A stretch of DNA of 6,189 nucleotides from Candidatus Baldrarchaeota archaeon (GTDB lineage: Archaea > Asgardarchaeota > Baldrarchaeia > Baldrarchaeales > DXJG01), in assembly GCA_030587435.1 (NCBI GenBank), contig JAUQZC010000024.1, positions 1 through 6,189 of the forward strand, in the 5' to 3' direction. This document shows, in pieces, positions 1 through 6,189 of the stretch (position 1 is the stretch's first letter; each line of letters opens with the position of its first letter). The notes beneath the pieces were generated by a model. It searched no databases. It saw only the letters and a program-made list of their open reading frames with translations, and was not told the DNA's origin. The translations under genes were made by a program, and so were the position numbers.

Positions 1-2
1 TA

Positions 3-1085
3 GTTAGACGCGACCTTTCGATAAGATCTGAAGGAATCGAAATAGAAAGTCTAAATGATTTAGTCAATAAGATCGGGGAAAAGCTTAAGGTTGATTACAT
101 TGTTGTTATTGATGAGTTTCAGAGGTTGCCTATGCATATACTTGAGGACTTAACGCAGTTCCATCCACGTGGAAGGCTAATTCTTTCGGGTTCAGCGCTA
201 GGAATTATAAAAAAGATTTTTGAGCCTTCCTCTCCACTTTTAGGATTTTTCACACCCATAAGAATTTCATTAATAAGTCCTAGAGATATTTTATCAACGT
301 TATCCAAAAAGTATGATCCTGTAAGAGCGGTGGAGCTTTCCGCATATTTACGTGATCCTTGGCTTATACCCCTTTATGGGGGAGAAGAACTTAACGAGTT
401 CGTGTATAGATATGCGTGTAGGTATTGGCAGGTAGTTAAAGCGCTGCTCGGAGAAGTGTTTACAGAAGAAGAAAGAACACTGACAAGAACTTACGAGGCA
501 ATATTAAGCCTTATAGGCTCTGGAAAATGGCAGCCAAAGGATATTGCAAATATATTGTATACGAGAGGCATATTAAAGGAACCTAGTAGTTCTGCTATAG
601 CGGGATATCTGAAAAATCTTATGGAAATGGATTTGATTGAAGCTACAAAAATATATGGCTCTAAACGGAAATTTTATCGAATAAAATCTCCAATAATGGA
701 AAACTTCTACTATATGGAAAGCAGATATGAAGTAACCGAAAGAGAAACATCATTTGAAGAATTAGAACCTACATTGAACAAACTAATCAACTTAGAAGTT
801 GAAAGGCTCATAGCTGACTTTTTCGCAGAAATAATGGGTGGACGAAGAGAATACATGCTGCGACCAGAAGTAGATTTCATAGTGACAGTGCGAGATAAAC
901 CTAAAGCGGTGGGCGAAGTCAAATGGGGAACTTATAGCAGAAAAGATTTGAGAAATTTTCTAAATAAAACTGAGACTATTCCAGGAGAAAAACTCTTTAT
1001 AACAAAGAAAAAAGAAGAAACATTTAATGGTGTAAAAATACTTGACGCAAAAGACTTAGTGAACATGATCCCAATAGAAGAATAA
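3..1085 (+). CDS. Archaeal DUF234-type ATPase (AAA/STAND-like), 5' end outside window
   Basis: The reading frame is open from base 3 to the TAA at 1083-1085, so the start and the Walker A motif lie upstream of the window. Visible in order: a Walker B strand YIVVIDEFQRL (Asp-Glu codons 111-116); a sensor-like strand LILSGSALG (177-203); a middle winged-helix-like part (about 480-700, with SSAIAGYLKNLMEMDLIE); and a C-terminal part with a PD-(D/E)XK-like signature, Asp in PEVDFIV (codon 873-875) followed by GEVKW (Glu 915-917, Lys 921-923). This order is typical of the archaeal ATPase family with a C-terminal DUF234 domain. These proteins are numerous, lineage-expanded and of poorly known role; some are thought to be linked to mobile elements or DNA processing. 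The exact function is unknown. The ATG at 126 is internal and not the true start. A decayed paralogous tail follows directly downstream. Confidence 0.85.
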   Translation, partial: VRRDLSIRSEGIEIESLNDLVNKIGEKLKVDYIVVIDEFQRLPMHILEDLTQFHPRGRLILSGSALGIIKKIFEPSSPLLGFFTPIRISLISPRDILSTLSKKYDPVRAVELSAYLRDPWLIPLYGGEELNEFVYRYACRYWQVVKALLGEVFTEEERTLTRTYEAILSLIGSGKWQPKDIANILYTRGILKEPSSSAIAGYLKNLMEMDLIEATKIYGSKRKFYRIKSPIMENFYYMESRYEVTERETSFEELEPTLNKLINLEVERLIADFFAEIMGGRREYMLRPEVDFIVTVRDKPKAVGEVKWGTYSRKDLRNFLNKTETIPGEKLFITKKKEETFNGVKILDAKDLVNMIPIEE

Positions 1086-1120
1086 AGTTAAATGAAACAT
1101 GAAAGGAAAAATCTTGTTAA

Positions 1121-1315
1121 GCGTTGATTTGTCTTGAAGAGAATGTGGCTGAGTTGAATTTAGGGAACTACCATAAAAGACATAAGAGTTTCATGATTAT
1201 AACTTGAACTGCTCTAGGAGAAGACTATTTATAGCAAAAGAAAAGGAAAAATGACAATGGTGTAAAAATATTTGTGTTCAAGGATTTAGTGGATATAGTG
1301 CAAACTTTTGGTTAG
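1121..1315 (+). pseudogene. Decayed C-terminal tail of a DUF234 ATPase paralogue
   Basis: In a single frame this stretch reads ...EENVAELNLGNYHKRHKSF..., then a stop, TALGEDYL, another stop (TAG), QKKRKNDNGVKIFVFKDLVDIV and a final TAG at 1313-1315. It lines up with the end of the ATPase just upstream: VAELNLGNY matches VGEVKWGTY, the two in-frame stops fall in the middle, and NGVKIFVFKDLVDIV matches NGVKILDAKDLVNMI. The DNA also matches (for example AATGGTGTAAAAATA occurs in both copies). The ExK motif of the parent is lost (AELN instead of GEVK). Only the last 60 or so codons remain, so it is a dead tandem duplicate or the scar of a recombination event. It is unlikely to encode anything. 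Confidence 0.75.
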
Positions 1316-1328
1316 AAAAATTTTTAAG
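1315..1328 (+). promoter_or_regulatory. BRE/TATA promoter of the eS25 gene
   Basis: A purine-rich BRE-like GAAAAA (1315-1320) is followed by a TATA-like TTTTTAAG (1321-1328). Transcription would start about 25 bases on, near 1348-1352, giving a leader of roughly 35 bases that contains the ribosome binding site GAGGGG (1372-1377), 6 bases before the ATG. The promoter sits at the very end of the upstream pseudogene. Confidence 0.5.
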
Positions 1329-1383
1329 TGTGGTTGAATTGGCTAATCGATAGCTTACAACTTAAGATTTTGAGGGGTATACT

Positions 1384-1665
1384 ATGGCTCAAAAGGTGAA
1401 GGTTAGGAAGAAAAAGAAGTACGGTAAGGTCTTTGAATACGAACCTATTATTAGAGATGCTTTTATCTCAGATGATTTAAGAGAGAAACTGGAAAAAGAA
1501 ATACCTAAAATGAAAGTCATATCACCAACAGAAATAGCGTTAAGATATAACATTAAAATCAGCACAGCAAAAGACTTCCTAGAAGAACTGGAACAAAAAG
1601 GTCTAATAAAGCTAGCTGTAAAAAACAGGAGAGTAAGAATCTACGTACCAGTAAAAGCAGCGTAA
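1384..1665 (+). CDS. rps25e: Small-subunit ribosomal protein eS25
   Basis: A 93-residue basic protein. Residues 1-14 form a Lys/Arg-rich tail (MAQKVKVRKKKKYG) expected to touch rRNA. The rest is the winged helix of the S25e family: PKMKVISPTEIALRYNIKISTAKDFLEELEQKGLIKL corresponds to the family pattern of a V-[IV]-[ST]-P-[ST] turn, a recognition helix and E-L-E-x-K-G-L-I-K, followed by a wing with RRVRIYVPV. In eukaryotes eS25 lies on the head of the 40S subunit near the E site. In archaea it occurs mainly in TACK and Asgard lineages and is generally missing from Euryarchaeota, which helps place this organism. The ATG at 1384 is supported by GAGGGG 6 bases upstream. The gene appears to be transcribed alone and converges on vapC. 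Confidence 0.9.
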   Translation: MAQKVKVRKKKKYGKVFEYEPIIRDAFISDDLREKLEKEIPKMKVISPTEIALRYNIKISTAKDFLEELEQKGLIKLAVKNRRVRIYVPVKAA

Positions 1666-1705
1666 CAACTTCCACAATTTAAAATTTACAAATTCTAATT
1701 TTGAA
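1666..1705. terminator. AT-rich convergent intergenic, probable termination zone
   Basis: The 40 bases between the stops of the convergent eS25 and vapC genes are almost pure A/T, with short T runs on both strands (ATTTT near 1698-1702 on plus; AAATTT/AATTT runs on minus). Archaeal termination relies on T-rich tracts rather than hairpins, so this is the likely shared end for both transcripts. No strong hairpin is seen. Confidence 0.3.
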
Positions 1706-2089
1706 CTATCCTACAAATAGTTTGAGACCAAGAGATGTTAGTGGTTTAAAGTGTTTTAGATTTAGTGTGTAGAGTTTTGCTCCATTATTTATTGTAATTG
1801 CAGCAATCATAGCATCTGTTCTACGTATAGCTTTCCCCTTTCTTTCCATTTCAATTTCTAATTTAGCTGCTAAAACAGCATCATCCTTTGTGTAACTAAC
1901 TACAGGTAGTCTTAGTATTTCCTCTACAGGCTTAGCATATTTGTATAGACCATACAGTATTTCATGAAGATTTATAGCTGTAATACAAATGTCTTCCCTG
2001 CTCTCAATAATCTTCTTTAACAATTCTTCTCCCTTTTTCGATTTCTTATCCATAATTTCAATTAGAACATCTGTATCAAGTATTATCAT
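1706..2089 (-). CDS. vapC: VapC-type PIN-domain ribonuclease toxin
   Basis: 127 residues, the usual VapC length. It carries the PIN-domain acidic set that binds the catalytic metal: Asp5 (and Asp7) in IILDTDVLIE, Glu43 in INLHEILYG, Asp92 in RRTDAMIAA, and Asn110 in the late strand LYTLNLKHFKPL. VapC toxins cut specific RNAs, often tRNA or rRNA, when not held by VapB. The start codon overlaps the stop of vapB by four bases (ATGA at 2086-2089), so translation is coupled and toxin follows antitoxin. No catalytic residue is missing, so the toxin should be active. Its RNA target cannot be read from the sequence. Confidence 0.93.
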   Translation of the reverse strand: MIILDTDVLIEIMDKKSKKGEELLKKIIESREDICITAINLHEILYGLYKYAKPVEEILRLPVVSYTKDDAVLAAKLEIEMERKGKAIRRTDAMIAAITINNGAKLYTLNLKHFKPLTSLGLKLFVG

Positions 2090-2298
2090 ATTCTTCTCTC
2101 CTCTCTTAAAGAAGCTATTTCTGAAAGCAGTTTCTTCTTATCGCGGAACTCAACTGAAGCCCTTAACTTAACAAGTATCTCGCTGGCGCTCACACTTTTT
2201 AAAAGTCTCTCAAATAAATCACTAAAACTCTCACCTGGCCGTTTAATAGCCAACAACCTCCTATAAACATCGTCCCTAATAGTAATAGTTTTCACCAT
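2086..2298 (-). CDS. vapB: VapB-family antitoxin
   Basis: 70 residues. The N-terminus MVKTITIRDDVYRRLLAIK fits a ribbon-helix-helix DNA-binding fold (strand KTITI, then a helix). It is followed by RPGESFSDLFERLL, a motif typical of the archaeal VapB family once called DUF217. The charged C-terminal part (about 40-70, EFRDKKKLLSEIASLREERRI) should wrap around VapC and neutralise it. The ATG at 2298 is preceded by GGTGG (2306-2310 on minus). It is first in the operon and overlaps vapC by four bases. VapB dimers usually repress their own promoter; the tandem repeat at 2319-2342 is the obvious candidate operator. Confidence 0.9.
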   Translation of the reverse strand: MVKTITIRDDVYRRLLAIKRPGESFSDLFERLLKSVSASEILVKLRASVEFRDKKKLLSEIASLREERRI

Positions 2299-2305
2299 TA
2301 TTTAA

Positions 2306-2310
2306 CCACC
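2306..2310 (-). promoter_or_regulatory. Ribosome binding site of vapB (GGTGG)
   Basis: GGTGG read on the minus strand, 7 bases before the vapB ATG. The same core precedes the ATG chosen for the EAP30 gene (5685-5689), which supports both start choices. Confidence 0.6.
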
Positions 2311-2318
2311 ACAAAATG

Positions 2319-2342
2319 TACATTTAAACATACATTTAAACA
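2319..2342. repeat. Tandem perfect 12-bp repeat, likely vapBC operator/promoter
   Basis: TACATTTAAACA occurs twice back to back (2319-2330 and 2331-2342) with no mismatch. On the minus strand each unit reads TGTTTAAATGTA and contains a TATA-like TTTAAAT, so the repeat overlaps the expected vapBC core promoter. A small palindrome ATGTACAT (2316-2323) touches its vapB-proximal edge. A ribbon-helix-helix antitoxin binding in tandem here would block TBP/TFB. The same A/T core could also serve a promoter for the rightward small gene pair, making it a shared divergent control region. Confidence 0.55.
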
Positions 2343-2382
2343 TTTTCAAACAAATCTACAAAACCTAGAGGGCTTACATTAG

Positions 2383-2565
2383 ATGTTGAGACAAGGAATT
2401 TTGGTAGTCGTTGGAAATAGAATGCATATATTAGTTGATGACCTGATTATTGTTTATTTAATCATAGGAAATATTATTAAAGTCGTAACAGTTATTGATG
2501 TAAGTAAGAGTAGAGATATAATTAAAAGAAGAGAAAAGAAAGGAAGATGGGTGAAAATTAGATGA
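2383..2565 (+). CDS. Small DUF4258-like protein, probably N-terminally truncated by a frameshift
   Basis: 60 codons from ATG 2383, preceded directly by an in-frame TAG (2380-2382). The product is mostly beta strands with a basic end: GILVVVGNR, LIIVYLI, NIIKVVTVIDVSKS, then RREKKGRWVKI. This resembles, from memory of the family, the C-terminal half of small archaeal DUF4258-type proteins that sit beside DUF2283 genes; confidence in the name is modest. In the frame one base off, the bases just before the shared part read LDVET (2379-2393), and removing one A near 2392-2395 would give a continuous DVETGILVVVGNR. A one-base insertion and loss of the N-terminal half therefore seem likely. A weak GAGGG (2368-2372) lies 10 bases before the ATG, so a short product might still be made. 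Its stop overlaps the DUF2283 start by four bases (ATGA). Confidence 0.5.
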   Translation: MLRQGILVVVGNRMHILVDDLIIVYLIIGNIIKVVTVIDVSKSRDIIKRREKKGRWVKIR

Positions 2566-2777
2566 AAATCAGATATGATCCTGAGGCTGATATACTTTAC
2601 ATTCTCATTAAAGAAGGAAGTATCAGGAATACTGTTGAAATTAGTGATGATTTATTTATAGAGTATGATGAAAACAACAACATTGTTGGAATCGAAATAT
2701 GGCAAGCTAGGAAAAACGTACTAAAAGAACTAATGGAATACATAAAAGACGCAATCAAGGCAACTACAAAGTTGTAA
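2562..2777 (+). CDS. DUF2283 family small protein
   Basis: 71 residues with the DUF2283 hallmark at its start: MKIRYDPEADILYILIKEG, then VEISDDLFIEYDENNNIVGIEI (strand-turn-strand), then a helical end LKELMEYIKDAIKA. The family consists of small proteins of unknown function that are common next to small toxin-like genes; a toxin-antitoxin-like role has been suspected but I know of no proof. A GGGTGA (2549-2554) lies 7 bases before the ATG, inside the end of the preceding frame, and the ATGA overlap implies coupled translation. The length is normal and no damage is seen, in contrast to its partner. Confidence 0.8.
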   Translation: MKIRYDPEADILYILIKEGSIRNTVEISDDLFIEYDENNNIVGIEIWQARKNVLKELMEYIKDAIKATTKL

Positions 2778-2794
2778 AACCATCTAATAACCAG

Positions 2795-2802
2795 TTTTCT
2801 TT
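2795..2802 (+). terminator. T-rich tract after the DUF2283 gene
   Basis: TTTTCTTT begins 17 bases after the DUF2283 stop. A pyrimidine/T tract with no hairpin is the usual archaeal terminator form. Confidence 0.35.
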
Positions 2803-2984
2803 AAATTCACTTATATGTCCTAGTCAAGCTTATTTTAACTACAAGTTCTTTAGAAAATGTTAGCATAAAAACGGCGGAGGAAATCTTAAAAGAATTTGAA
2901 TTCCACATCTAAGTTCGAAGGACTCTAATATCGTAATGATGTTTTGAGAATTAGAGGAAATTTAAGTTAGTGCTGGGATTATGA
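2803..2984. other. Intergenic stretch before lplA
   Basis: About 180 bases with no credible gene. One plus-strand frame stays open from 2805 to the TAA at 2910-2912 and ends KTAEEILKEFEFHI, which looks protein-like, but it lacks a start codon and has a stop directly upstream; it may be the tail of a lost gene. A possible lplA promoter lies at 2953-2967. Confidence 0.3.
2953..2967 (+). promoter_or_regulatory. Possible BRE/TATA of lplA
   Basis: AGAGGAAA followed by TTTAAGT (2961-2967). It lies only about 20 bases from the lplA ATG at 2985, and no clear ribosome binding site precedes that ATG, so a leaderless or nearly leaderless transcript is possible. The spacing is a little short, so the call is weak. 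Confidence 0.3.
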
Positions 2985-3758
2985 ATGGAAGAGTGGCGGT
3001 TAATTGATCTTGACATTTATGATGGTTTTATGAATATGGCTATTGATGAAGCGATCTTAGAAGCTAGAATTAAAGGTCTTGTCCCTAATACTATTAGGTT
3101 TTATCGTTGGAGTCCTTCTGCTGTTTCAATAGGTGTTCATCAAAGTATTTATCAAGAGGTTAATTTAGAAGCATGTAAACAATTGGGCGTAAATGTTGTA
3201 CGAAGAATAACTGGAGGAGGAGCCGTTTACCACGATTTTGAAGGAGAAATTACCTACAGCATTGTAGTTAACGAAAACCATAAAGCAGTACCTTCCAATG
3301 TTGCTGATTCATTTGTTGCTTTGTCTAAAGGCCTTATATACGCGTTAAACCGCTTAGGATTAAACGCCCATCACGGAGTTCTCCACTGTCCCTCCATTTT
3401 CATTGGAAGGAAAAAGATTTCCGGTAATGCTCAAGCTAGAAGAAGAGGCTTCATCTTGCAGCATGGAACCTTACTTCTAAAAGTTGATGCAGACAAAATG
3501 TTCACTGTTCTAAAAATTCCACCTGGGAAAACAAAGGAGCGAATGATACGTTCTGTGCATGCAAAAGTTACATCGATTTACAGCGAACTAAAACACAATG
3601 TAGATTTCGACGAAATAAGAGACGCTTTGGTGGAAGGGTTTGAAAAAGCACTCAACATAAAGCTAATACCAGAAAAATTAACTTCTGAAGAACTAAAACT
3701 CGCAAAAAAACTAAAAGAAACAAAATATGGTAGAAAAGAATGGAACTTTAAATTTTAA
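2985..3758 (+). CDS. lplA: Lipoate-protein ligase A, catalytic (N-terminal) domain
   Basis: 257 residues of the BPL/LplA fold, which activates lipoate (or octanoate) as an acyl-AMP and/or transfers it to the lysine of lipoyl carrier proteins such as the GcvH or 2-oxoacid dehydrogenase E2 domains. Motifs seen: FMNMAIDEAIL (15-25); the signature RRITGGGAVYHD (73-84), the lipoyl-AMP loop; and KISGNAQ with the catalytic-type lysine at 144, followed by FILQHGTLLL (156-165). Bacterial LplA has an extra C-terminal domain of about 90 residues. Here the protein ends soon after the catalytic fold, as in archaea with a bipartite enzyme in which a separate LplB supplies that domain. No lplB lies in this window. 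The start at 2985 matches the family N-terminus (WRLID...). A lipoyl/octanoyl transferase of the LipM type is the main alternative. Confidence 0.88.
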   Translation: MEEWRLIDLDIYDGFMNMAIDEAILEARIKGLVPNTIRFYRWSPSAVSIGVHQSIYQEVNLEACKQLGVNVVRRITGGGAVYHDFEGEITYSIVVNENHKAVPSNVADSFVALSKGLIYALNRLGLNAHHGVLHCPSIFIGRKKISGNAQARRRGFILQHGTLLLKVDADKMFTVLKIPPGKTKERMIRSVHAKVTSIYSELKHNVDFDEIRDALVEGFEKALNIKLIPEKLTSEELKLAKKLKETKYGRKEWNFKF

Positions 3759-3792
3759 TGCACATAAATACTTACTTTGGGCAACATAAAAT

Positions 3793-5025
3793 TCAGGAAA
3801 TCTTTTCCAATATTAGTTTTTTACCGTTTTCTAACGCCTCTTCTAACATGTCGCCACGCGGCCCGCCGCCTTTAGCGAAGTTTAGCTGTCCTCCGCCTCC
3901 ACCGCCCAGAATTTTGGAAACCTTGTTAACTATATCACCTATATTTATGCCTTTATCAATAGCTTTTTCACCTGCAGCACCGATGACAGCGGCTCCACCG
4001 TTAACTCTCCCTATTAGAACAACTAAGTTCGGATATTTTTGAACAGCCCTTTTTGCTACGGCTTCCATAGATTTTTTCGGAATATCCACGCATGTGACAA
4101 GTATTTTTAAATCTCCATGCTGCTCGGCTTTGCCAAGGAGTTTTTCGATTTGTATTTCAGCTTCTAAGCTCATAACTTTTTCTTCAAGTTTATTCTTTGA
4201 ATCTAAGAGTTTTTGAACAGCCTTTAAGACATCTTTTTCATTCAACATTTTCCTAATGTTCTCCACGTCAAAACGTTCTTTCCAAAACATGTCAATTGCG
4301 GTTTTACCAGCTGTTATCATTAAGCGGTCGATGCCTTCTCCTGCTCTCTCCCTCCTCAATATACGTATTGCTAAGACTTCTCCTGTTCTTGCAACGTGAG
4401 TTCCACCGCAAAAGTTCACATCCCAATCCTCGATTTCAACAACTCTAACTTCCTTGACGGCTTTTTTAACCTCTAACTCTGGGAATTTTCTTAAAGCTTC
4501 CTCATAGAGCAGGAAGTATGTTTTGACTTTTCTGTCTTCCCAAATAACTTTATTAGCAAGCCGTTCAATTTCTTCAAGTTGTTCATGAGAAATCTTTCTA
4601 CCTTTTCCTACAAAAACCTCTATTCTAGCTCTGTCCGCATGAATTCCTGAACCAGCGACTTTAACATCTCCAACAACTCTTCTAATGGCACCCCAAACAA
4701 TATGAGATGCTGTATGATGTTGCATATGTAATATTCTACGATTCCAATCGATTTCGCCTAGAACTGTTGCGCCTTCAACAAAGTCTTCAACGCTTTTAAC
4801 GTAGTGTCTAATTTCTCCACCGACCTCTAAAACTTTATAGACATCAGTTTCAAAACCTTTGCCTTTAATTTTACCAGTGTCCCATGGTTGCCCTCCACCC
4901 TCAGGGTAAAATGCTGTTCGATCAAGGACTATATAGCTTTCGCCATCCTCTACTCCTATTTTTAAGATTTTTGCTTCAAAACTTTTCAAATACGGGTCAC
5001 TATAATACAGTTTCTCCGTGGACAT
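3793..5025 (-). CDS. alaX: AlaX-L, trans-editing alanyl-tRNA deacylase with DHHA1 domain
   Basis: 410 residues, the long AlaX form. It hydrolyses Ser-tRNA(Ala), and possibly Gly-tRNA(Ala), made by mistake by alanyl-tRNA synthetase. Domain order: an N-terminal part with FYPEGGGQPWDTG (39-51) typical of AlaX; the zinc site with HHTASH (His104, His108) and CGGTH (Cys206, His210); a charged coiled coil (about 260-300, EKDVLKAVQKLLDSKNKLEEKV); and a C-terminal DHHA1 domain ending in a glycine run, GGGGGGQLNFAKGGG (about 373-388), as in the C-terminus of AlaRS. There is no aminoacylation domain, so it is not a synthetase. ATG 5025 is preceded by GGGGAG (5032-5037), which overlaps the last codons of the EAP30 gene; only 3 bases separate the two frames. 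It converges on lplA. Confidence 0.93.
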   Translation of the reverse strand: MSTEKLYYSDPYLKSFEAKILKIGVEDGESYIVLDRTAFYPEGGGQPWDTGKIKGKGFETDVYKVLEVGGEIRHYVKSVEDFVEGATVLGEIDWNRRILHMQHHTASHIVWGAIRRVVGDVKVAGSGIHADRARIEVFVGKGRKISHEQLEEIERLANKVIWEDRKVKTYFLLYEEALRKFPELEVKKAVKEVRVVEIEDWDVNFCGGTHVARTGEVLAIRILRRERAGEGIDRLMITAGKTAIDMFWKERFDVENIRKMLNEKDVLKAVQKLLDSKNKLEEKVMSLEAEIQIEKLLGKAEQHGDLKILVTCVDIPKKSMEAVAKRAVQKYPNLVVLIGRVNGGAAVIGAAGEKAIDKGINIGDIVNKVSKILGGGGGGQLNFAKGGGPRGDMLEEALENGKKLILEKIS

Positions 5026-5028
5026 ATA

Positions 5029-5676
5029 TCACTCCCCTTTTAACTTGTTTTTACCGGCAAAGGAAGGGAAGTACCATCTTAGACCTCTTTCATATTTAAC
5101 ATCTCTAACAGCTATACCCGTTCTCTCCAAATCCTCTAAAACCATTTGAGCTTTCTCAGTGCTCCAGCCAGTTTTCAAAATAATTTCCTCGAGAGTAACC
5201 CAGCCTTTGGAAGAAGCAAGATCTAAAACTGTCCAATGATCGTTAGATAGTTCAACGGGTGAAAAAGATACTATTTTAGCTCCGCTTGGAAGAGTTTTAA
5301 CTCTGGGGATCACATTTTTCTTCTCAAGATTTTTCAAAGCAGTTAAAATTGTCTCCGGGGTTAATGGGTCGTCTTCTCTACCCCTATTTATAAGTAAAAC
5401 TATATCGGAAAGAGTTATTACTCCGCCTCTCTTGGGACATTCATCCCTTAAAACTTTCAGGATTACATAGCTGAGTTTGTCGTAAAACTTACCCTTGCCT
5501 CTAATTTTTTCAAAGAAACTTGGTTTACCAGTTATAAGGGGAAACTTTTCTTCCGGCTCTGGAAATTTAAACACGGTTTGCAAAGTTGATATAGCCCAAT
5601 CTATTTTCCTTTTAATTTCCTTTCTCGCTTCCTCAATCCCCTTTATAATCTTTTCACCAAATTTCTCTACACCCAT
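5029..5676 (-). CDS. EAP30-domain protein, ESCRT-II Vps22/Vps36-like
   Basis: 215 residues from ATG 5676. Residues 1-38 are a charged helix (EKIIKGIEEARKEIKRKI), then two winged helices. Features shared with eukaryotic Vps22 (SNF8/EAP30) and Vps36, from memory: GKFYDKLSYVILKVL (62-76, cf. G.FYYELGVQIIEVC); GGVITLSDIVLLINRGR (84-100, cf. GGLITL of Vps22 and the LVNRARG of Vps36); LTPETI (105-110, cf. LSPEDL of Vps36); SGAKIVSFSPVEL (131-143); DHWTVLDLASSKGWVTLEEI (146-165, cf. DHTVVLQLAEKNGYVTVSEI); GWSTEKAQMVLEDLERTGIAVRD (170-192); and RGLRWYFPSF (197-206, cf. EGLRFYPNLF). It mixes traits of both subunits, as expected of an unduplicated ancestor-like form. ESCRT-II bridges ESCRT-I and ESCRT-III in membrane remodelling; this role in archaea is inferred. 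There are no membrane segments, and no GLUE or zinc-finger domain. A TTG at 5712 would add 12 residues but has no ribosome binding site. First gene of an operon with alaX. Confidence 0.85.
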   Translation of the reverse strand: MGVEKFGEKIIKGIEEARKEIKRKIDWAISTLQTVFKFPEPEEKFPLITGKPSFFEKIRGKGKFYDKLSYVILKVLRDECPKRGGVITLSDIVLLINRGREDDPLTPETILTALKNLEKKNVIPRVKTLPSGAKIVSFSPVELSNDHWTVLDLASSKGWVTLEEIILKTGWSTEKAQMVLEDLERTGIAVRDVKYERGLRWYFPSFAGKNKLKGE

Positions 5677-5684
5677 CTTGGTAA

Positions 5685-5689
5685 CCACC
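5685..5689 (-). promoter_or_regulatory. Ribosome binding site deciding the EAP30 start (GGTGG)
   Basis: GGTGG on the minus strand, 8 bases before ATG 5676. The upstream in-frame TTG at 5712 has no such site and lies only about 10 bases past the TATA-like box, too close to be on the transcript. This favours the ATG. Confidence 0.55.
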
Positions 5690-5720
5690 AATTTACTATC
5701 ATTAAGCCACAAAAGATAAG

Positions 5721-5728
5721 CATAAAAG
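5721..5728 (-). promoter_or_regulatory. TATA box of the EAP30-alaX operon
   Basis: CTTTTATG on the minus strand. A start about 25 bases on, near 5699, would leave a leader of roughly 23 bases holding the GGTGG site before ATG 5676. No other A/T box is as well placed. Confidence 0.45.
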
Positions 5729-5802
5729 GTTACCGATCAACCACGTAAAGCCGCTGCAATTTTCCTTCTCCACTAGAAGCAAGGTCGAAGGTGATTTAAT
5801 TA

Positions 5803-5817
5803 CGAAAAATTTATATT
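5803..5817 (+). promoter_or_regulatory. Strong BRE/TATA promoter of the right-end RNA
   Basis: CGAAAAA (5803-5809, BRE-like) directly joined to TTTATATT (5810-5817, near-consensus archaeal TATA). The expected start, about 25 bases past the box centre, is near 5839, which is where the first helix of the predicted RNA begins. This is the best-looking promoter in the window and points away from the EAP30 operon. Confidence 0.65.
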
Positions 5818-5832
5818 TTCCCGTGGCTAATT

Positions 5833-5846
5833 TCCCTAGCTAGGGA
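5833..5846. repeat. 14-bp perfect palindrome at the predicted RNA start
   Basis: TCCCTAGCTAGGGA equals its own reverse complement and straddles the predicted transcription start. Its right half is also the 5' strand of the closing helix of the RNA. It could be a binding site for a dimeric regulator, or simply a by-product of the RNA sequence. Confidence 0.5.
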
Positions 5847-6160
5847 GATAGTTTCAACCTAGAGGGCAGTAACATGGAGTGAAACTTTCGAACATTTATA
5901 TGCTTTGTATCTCAAATTTAGTGTTTGTGGGTCTGAATGCCTCCTTCGGGGCGATGTGTGGGACCCACGCAAGATAGATGTGTGGAGTGTTCCCGAAGGG
6001 AATGATGAAGGGAGCAGAGTACGATGAGACCGTTCCCCGTGAAAGCCTCCCAATGAAACCAGAGGGAGGAAGACCTCGCTAACGAAAGTTATTAAATGTT
6101 CCGAAAGTTAGCGAGAGTCAGAACGGTAAGGGTACAACTGTATCGTCCTCTCTCCTAGGC
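5839..6160 (+). ncRNA. Structured noncoding RNA of about 320 nt, class not recognised
   Basis: Helices read by eye: P1 5840-5848/6151-6158 (one bulged G) closes the molecule; P2 5850-5856/5880-5886 (AGTTTCA/TGAAACT); P3 5927-5933/5962-5968 (GTGGGTC/GACCCAC) capped by 5939-5943/5948-5952; P4 5990-5994/5998-6002; P5 6017-6025/6042-6050 of the 61xx strand, that is 6142-6150 (one mismatch); P6 6029-6035/6121-6127 (ACCGTTC/GAACGGT) enclosing P7 6046-6051/6064-6069 and P8 6075-6083/6107-6115 (CTCGCTAAC/GTTAGCGAG). Bases 5887-5898 can also pair with the P8 loop (6093-6105), a pseudoknot. A T.G wobble in the P3 cap favours the plus strand, as does the promoter. It is GC-richer than its surroundings, as noncoding RNAs are in AT-rich thermophiles. 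RNase P conserved regions (GGAAAGUC, ACAGAA) and the SRP helix-8 motif (GUCAGG...GGAAG) are not found. The 3' end beyond 6160 is uncertain; 6161-6189 shows nothing else I can support. Confidence 0.65.
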
Positions 6161-6189
6161 GTAAGTTAAACCTATTGATGAAACATACT

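Follow-up and report, generated by a model that had tools for sequence, protein, structure and literature searches.

We describe a protein of the EAP30 family encoded by a 6,189-nucleotide stretch of Candidatus Baldrarchaeota archaeon DNA (assembly GCA_030587435.1, contig JAUQZC010000024.1, positions 1 to 6,189; hereafter the window). The protein, P0001, is a genuine EAP30-family protein of a Baldrarchaeota-type Asgard archaeon. It is predicted to adopt the fold of subunits of ESCRT-II (endosomal sorting complex required for transport II), its gene is under purifying selection, and in two related genomes its orthologue is a paralogue additional to the canonical Vps22. We suggest, with moderate confidence, that P0001 is a second ESCRT-II-type EAP30 subunit that acts as an adaptor together with Vps25 and/or Vps22.

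The initial annotation had placed an EAP30 protein gene at 5029-5676, and we found it there, on the minus strand.

5029..5676, minus strand: gene for the EAP30-domain (ESCRT-II-like) protein, 215 amino acids; ATG start at 5676, TGA stop at 5029-5031
5720..5727, minus strand: TATA-like TTTTATGC, approximately 45 nt upstream of the EAP30 ATG, in a stretch kept in the relatives L001 and L002

Frame 1 of the plus strand contains 11 stops across 5029-5676. The ATG at 5676 is preferred to a TTG at 5712, because the aligned orthologues (n = 7, equal length, 81-97% identity to P0001) are all 215 amino acids long from that methionine. The ratio of nonsynonymous to synonymous substitution rates (dN/dS) is 0.060 and 0.066 against the two relatives whose DNA was compared (L001 and L002), and the gene is under purifying selection. 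Judged by eye, the TATA-like stretch may act as its promoter element.

Pfam assigns P0001 to EAP30 (PF04157) with an E-value of 1.5e-20 and 74.3 bits, the cut-off being 26.8 bits, and an NCBIfam scan of the protein gave no family above its cut-off. The top matches of a sequence search against PDB are human SNF8/Vps22 (6.5e-17) and human Vps36 (5.2e-11). The best Foldseek match of the AlphaFold model is human Vps22 (1.7e-9), and the five matches at E <= 0.001 are each a human or yeast ESCRT-II chain; the first unrelated match, a UFL1-DDRGK1 chimera, follows at 1.7e-3. A VIA-align search with the model of a related Vps22 gave the same ESCRT-II entries at the top. The Foldseek ranking, with five ESCRT-II chains first, rules out an unrelated tandem winged-helix transcription factor. 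The two winged helices, in the arrangement of ESCRT-II subunits, are located as follows (from sequence, Pfam and the AlphaFold model).

5266..5490, minus strand: first winged helix, residues approximately 63-137 (GGVITLSDIVLLINRGR...SGAKIVSF)
5062..5250, minus strand: second winged helix, residues approximately 143-205 (DHWTVLDLA...GWVTLEEI...RGLRWYFPSF)

The four segments quoted in the initial annotation are present in the 215-residue product in the order it gave. Its description of an archaeal (Asgard) EAP30 protein with tandem winged helices agrees with the Pfam and Foldseek results, and the structural comparison with Vps22 and Vps36 that it proposed put ESCRT-II chains on top, with no unrelated winged-helix factor first.

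Close orthologues are encoded by L001 (a Baldrarchaeota assembly, 94% identical) and L002 (a record titled Odinarchaeota AUK032, JAGGSW010000026.1, 93% identical); P0001 and its orthologues are referred to as P0001-type. L001 and L002 are 99.7% identical in the EAP30 gene and 98.9% in the adjoining AlaX gene. As these genes are near-identical and the Odinarchaeum genome G174 has no orthologue, the title of L002 probably applies loosely to the lineage of L001 and would need correction. We took G174 to be Odinarchaeum since its Vps25 is identical to PDB 7pb9_A over 170 aligned residues. This entry appears to be the Odinarchaeum Vps25 crystal structure described in PMC9192718.

The genomes of L001 and L002, G001 and G002, each encode two EAP30 proteins above the Pfam cut-off. 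In brief, these are the orthologue of P0001 (70.7 and 68.2 bits with PF04157, respectively) and a canonical 246-residue Vps22 (96.4 and 95.4 bits); G001 has two further EAP30 matches below the cut-off. Because both genomes carry a full-length canonical Vps22, the P0001-type protein is an additional paralogue in them, and the idea of a single Vps22/36 ancestor-like subunit, put forward in the initial annotation, is not supported. P0001 shares 41% identity with the Vps22 of G001 and 29% with that of Odinarchaeum. In G001, vps22 closes a series of genes that starts with UEV/Vps23 and Vps28 and continues with a short gene resembling the C-terminal part of Vps28 (L067); the series adjoins ubiquitin, E1, E2 and RING-type genes. 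The genes of this cluster were named by eye, without profiles, using the gene orders in PMC9192718 and PMC10936438. The contig of G002 (L068) covers Vps22 and the short gene and then ends within the ubiquitin-ESCRT cluster. Genes for Vps25, for a close relative of Vps4 and for two ESCRT-III proteins were found in all of G001, G002, G005 (a near relative) and G174. The initial annotation had named a genome lacking other ESCRT components as a refutation; G001 and G002 are no such genomes, but they do not bear out a single Vps22/36 subunit either. One Vps25 match each was obtained in G001 and G002, and no second Vps25 was found in either.

P0001 differs from Vps22 at the N-terminus and retains the residue that corresponds to a known Vps25 contact.

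5569..5670, minus strand: N-terminal region, one predicted amphipathic helix, residues 3-36 (AlphaFold model)
5101..5103, minus strand: codon of Asp192, in the alignment column of yeast Vps22 Asp214

Asgard Vps22, described as a Vps22-like protein in PMC9192718 and PMC10936438, shares with P0001 the tandem winged helices, the EAP30 Pfam family and conserved residues, whereas the N-terminus of P0001 is approximately 30 residues shorter, with one helix, and its gene lies away from ESCRT genes. Thus 50 residues precede the aligned domain region in P0001 versus 82 in the related Vps22, whose model has N-terminal helices at residues 3-54 and 57-70 in place of the single helix at 3-36. The first 83 positions of the EAP30 profile are unmatched in P0001, and the long N-terminal helical part typical of Vps22 is missing. 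The hydrophobic moment of the remaining helix is 0.64 over residues 9-26, a single value with no control sequence. Eukaryotic Vps22/SNF8, the best PDB match by sequence and fold, has the Vps25-contact Asp in common with P0001 but differs from it in its long N-terminal helical part. In yeast, Vps22 Asp214 forms a salt bridge with Vps25 Arg83 (PMC539351); the correspondence to Asp192 comes from the alignment, with the residue number counted back from the printed end of the chain. The Asp is kept in the four P0001-type rows that were counted separately, in 7/7 eukaryotic Vps22 and in 3/3 Vps36.

Based on these features, we suggest that the second winged helix docks Vps25 via the conserved Asp192, and that Vps25 would then recruit ESCRT-III. 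The partner of the first winged helix may be Vps22 or another P0001 molecule. The shortened amphipathic helix would replace the helical N-terminus of Vps22, and could thereby alter membrane or ESCRT-I binding.

Several observations weigh against a second ESCRT-II subunit of this kind. In a search of 227 genomes of the phylum of G001, presumably the Asgard archaea, with a profile built from eight P0001-type proteins, orthologues (approximately 470 bits) turned up in only two; the next-best matches are the Vps22 proteins of those same two genomes, at no more than 163 bits. The paralogue is a lineage-limited gain, or has been lost elsewhere. According to PMC9192718, the Vps22 of Odinarchaeum is a monomer that possibly requires a partner not yet discovered, and P0001 is ruled out as an orthologue of that partner, since G174 has no P0001 orthologue and a single PF04157 match (it also has one match to the A1 profile). 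The gene is paired with AlaX, outside the ESCRT clusters. Finally, the Vps25-contact Asp is kept in 69/93 Asgard rows (which include the orthologues of L001 and L002), and the 24 rows without it comprise both extra paralogues and main Vps22 copies. As some main Vps22 copies do without it, Asp192 is a weak, suggestive marker of Vps25 binding, and it may be retained for reasons of fold.

A possible but unlikely alternative is that P0001 forms an independent, homodimeric ESCRT-II with a different membrane task, parallel to the Vps22 complex. In favour of this, a maximum-likelihood tree of 107 rows unites the six P0001-type rows with 100/100 support on a long stem of 0.88, and in L001 and L002 the gene forms a pair of its own away from ESCRT genes. 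Vps22 of Heimdall, Loki and Thor lineages has been reported to self-interact (PMC9192718). On the other hand, the N-terminal helical part of Vps22 proteins is shortened in P0001, and G001 and G002 have one Vps25 match each.

It has also to be considered that P0001 is a winged-helix paralogue recruited from ESCRT to a function in translation or with nucleic acids, such as regulation or support of AlaX, which we regard as doubtful. One argument for it concerns the gene directly downstream.

3793..5025, minus strand: AlaX-type alanyl-tRNA editing protein, 410 amino acids, 3 nt downstream of the EAP30 gene and in the same direction

The order of the two genes and the 3 nt that separate the stop of EAP30 from the start of AlaX are the same in all three loci (window, L001 and L002). 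The 3' end of the EAP30 gene carries a ribosome-binding (Shine-Dalgarno)-like motif, GGGGAG in the window and GGAGGAG in L001. The spacing and this motif make it probable that the two genes are co-transcribed. In G005, neither an EAP30 orthologue nor the 410-residue AlaX was found, the only matches being a shorter AlaX-like protein and alanyl-tRNA synthetase, and in the Pfam scan the second winged helix weakly matched DNA-binding families, always under their cut-offs. However, AlaX does not depend on the EAP30 gene, as G004 encodes, without an EAP30 gene, an AlaX 50% identical to that of the window, flanked by a macro-domain gene and an S25e gene (both named by eye). Taken as a whole, P0001 has the fold and sequence of an ESCRT-II protein, and it retains the Asp of the Vps25 contact. 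Moreover, neighbours within archaeal operons are often functionally unrelated.

We consider it improbable that P0001 is an archaeal orthologue of eukaryotic Vps36, which would make the Vps22/Vps36 split older than eukaryotes. The initial annotation had described traits of both proteins, and a resemblance to both is indeed seen in the PDB matches and profiles, although likeness to Vps22 dominates. In comparisons with profiles built from three vertebrate Vps36 rows and seven eukaryotic Vps22 rows, P0001 scored 39.3 and 64.0 bits, respectively. The remark has a basis in that Vps36 scores are 32.9-39.5 bits in the six P0001-type rows, compared with 29.5 bits for the Vps22 of the related genome, which scores 90.1 bits with Vps22; the gap between the two profiles is smaller for the P0001-type rows than for that Vps22. 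Other Asgard rows reach comparable Vps36 scores, however (L026 39.4 bits and four more above 36), some of them with smaller gaps. The first winged helix is similar to that of Vps36 in the printed alignment, but P0001 has no Pfam match to a GLUE/PH domain, and only approximately 60 residues precede its first winged helix. Overall, P0001 is nearer to Vps22 than to Vps36, although its Vps36 score is one of the higher ones in the Asgard rows.

The tree does not group the P0001-type rows with Vps36. They sit among Asgard Vps22, beside a set holding Baldrarchaeota proteins, with weak support (81/46). Forcing them together with Vps36 costs just 2.4 log units (approximately unbiased test, p-AU 0.298). 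Two Vps36 controls, with costs of 8.1 and 9.0 and p of 0.287 and 0.242, were likewise not rejected, so the topology test is powerless to decide on an affinity to Vps36. The tree holds only three Vps36 rows, all vertebrate and on a long branch, and the tree tool warned of long branches meeting around them; eukaryotes were poorly sampled, the named hits in the top 120 of each protein search being animals. Forced grouping with Baldrarchaeota Vps22 costs 6.1 log units (p-AU 0.254). A recent duplication of the lineage's own Vps22 is not favoured by the 41% identity and the long stem, although this p-AU would be compatible with it.

The suggestion that its genome has P0001 as the only ancestor-like Vps22/36 subunit might draw on the missing ESCRT neighbours in the window and on the mixed resemblance, but it is very improbable, as both orthologue-bearing genomes have a separate canonical Vps22.

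Returning to P0001 as a second ESCRT-II subunit, PMC9192718 gives Asgard genomes a single Vps22/Vps36-like gene and suggests that Vps36 emerged during eukaryogenesis. Against this published view of one Vps22/36 gene, the window paralogue is a modest but testable lead. Extra EAP30 copies are not new in themselves, since PMC10936438 notes that the domain organization and paralogue number of Asgard ESCRT-II proteins vary. Among the papers listed in our literature search, none was seen to describe a P0001-type protein; figures and supplements were outside the search and may list it. As far as checked, P0001 is a well-supported Asgard EAP30 paralogue that is new as a described variant. A second EAP30 paralogue under selection and a canonical Vps22 make a concrete pair for testing a hetero-oligomeric archaeal ESCRT-II, and as a shortened, diverged relative of Vps22/Vps36, P0001 is a candidate archaeal counterpart of the eukaryotic partner subunit. 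That it is a Vps36-like partner of Vps22, giving an archaeon a two-paralogue ESCRT-II core that either shares its descent with the eukaryotic Vps22-Vps36 heterodimer or arose in parallel to it, is a speculation to which we assign a low probability.

Other Asgard genomes also encode extra EAP30 proteins. Two or more copies are present in 18/70 genomes of the fetched set, which is no estimate of frequency because second copies were fetched deliberately and some main copies were left out. Like P0001, these proteins coexist with Vps22, and no ESCRT neighbour was found in the loci examined. They are placed elsewhere in the tree and have longer N-terminal parts, except L080 among the lengths printed. 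They perhaps include cog.002441 of PMC10936438. A tblastn search (1e-4) of 24 secondary EAP30 loci of 3 to 6 kb, using G001 and window proteins as queries, found neither AlaX nor an ESCRT neighbour, though distant relatives may escape it. The sole exception is a UEV-like stretch in L097 that is part of the EAP30 frame itself. This frame (L097:771-1619, genome G169) encodes 282 amino acids in which the UEV-like (Vps23 N-terminal) stretch, with 23.6 bits below its cut-off of 27, is fused to EAP30 tandem winged helices (48.4 bits). By its sequence it is possibly a fusion of ubiquitin-binding and ESCRT-II parts, formally like the ubiquitin-binding GLUE and EAP30 domains of Vps36. In a 784-residue frame (L073:1073-3427, G166), the EAP30 domain occupies residues 613-742 (38.4 bits), close to the C-terminus, and helix-turn-helix families match weakly further upstream.

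The eight window proteins scanned include no member of an ESCRT family above the Pfam cut-off other than P0001, as the initial annotation had noted for the surroundings of the gene. Pfam identified the neighbours as AlaX, lipoate ligase, S25e and VapBC-like genes; the gene thus lacks the ESCRT-I/II neighbours that vps22 usually, though not always, has in Asgard genomes. In L001, S25e, AlaX and lipoate ligase genes also lie near the EAP30 gene, and its neighbours there include myo-inositol-phosphate synthase and macro-domain genes. Rfam (gathering thresholds) and tRNA scans of the window gave no match. In L001 and L002, the myo-inositol-phosphate synthase gene lies upstream of EAP30; at this place in the window, the plus strand at approximately 5930-6082 holds what looks by eye like a degraded C-terminal remnant of an IS605-type TnpB gene, for which Pfam gave no match. 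An incomplete gene at 3-1085 on the plus strand possibly encodes a protein like AAA ATPases, its matches to AAA_14 and DUF234 all being under the cut-offs. At 1706-2298, the minus strand encodes a VapB-like antitoxin and PIN-domain (VapC-like) toxin pair, as identified by Pfam.
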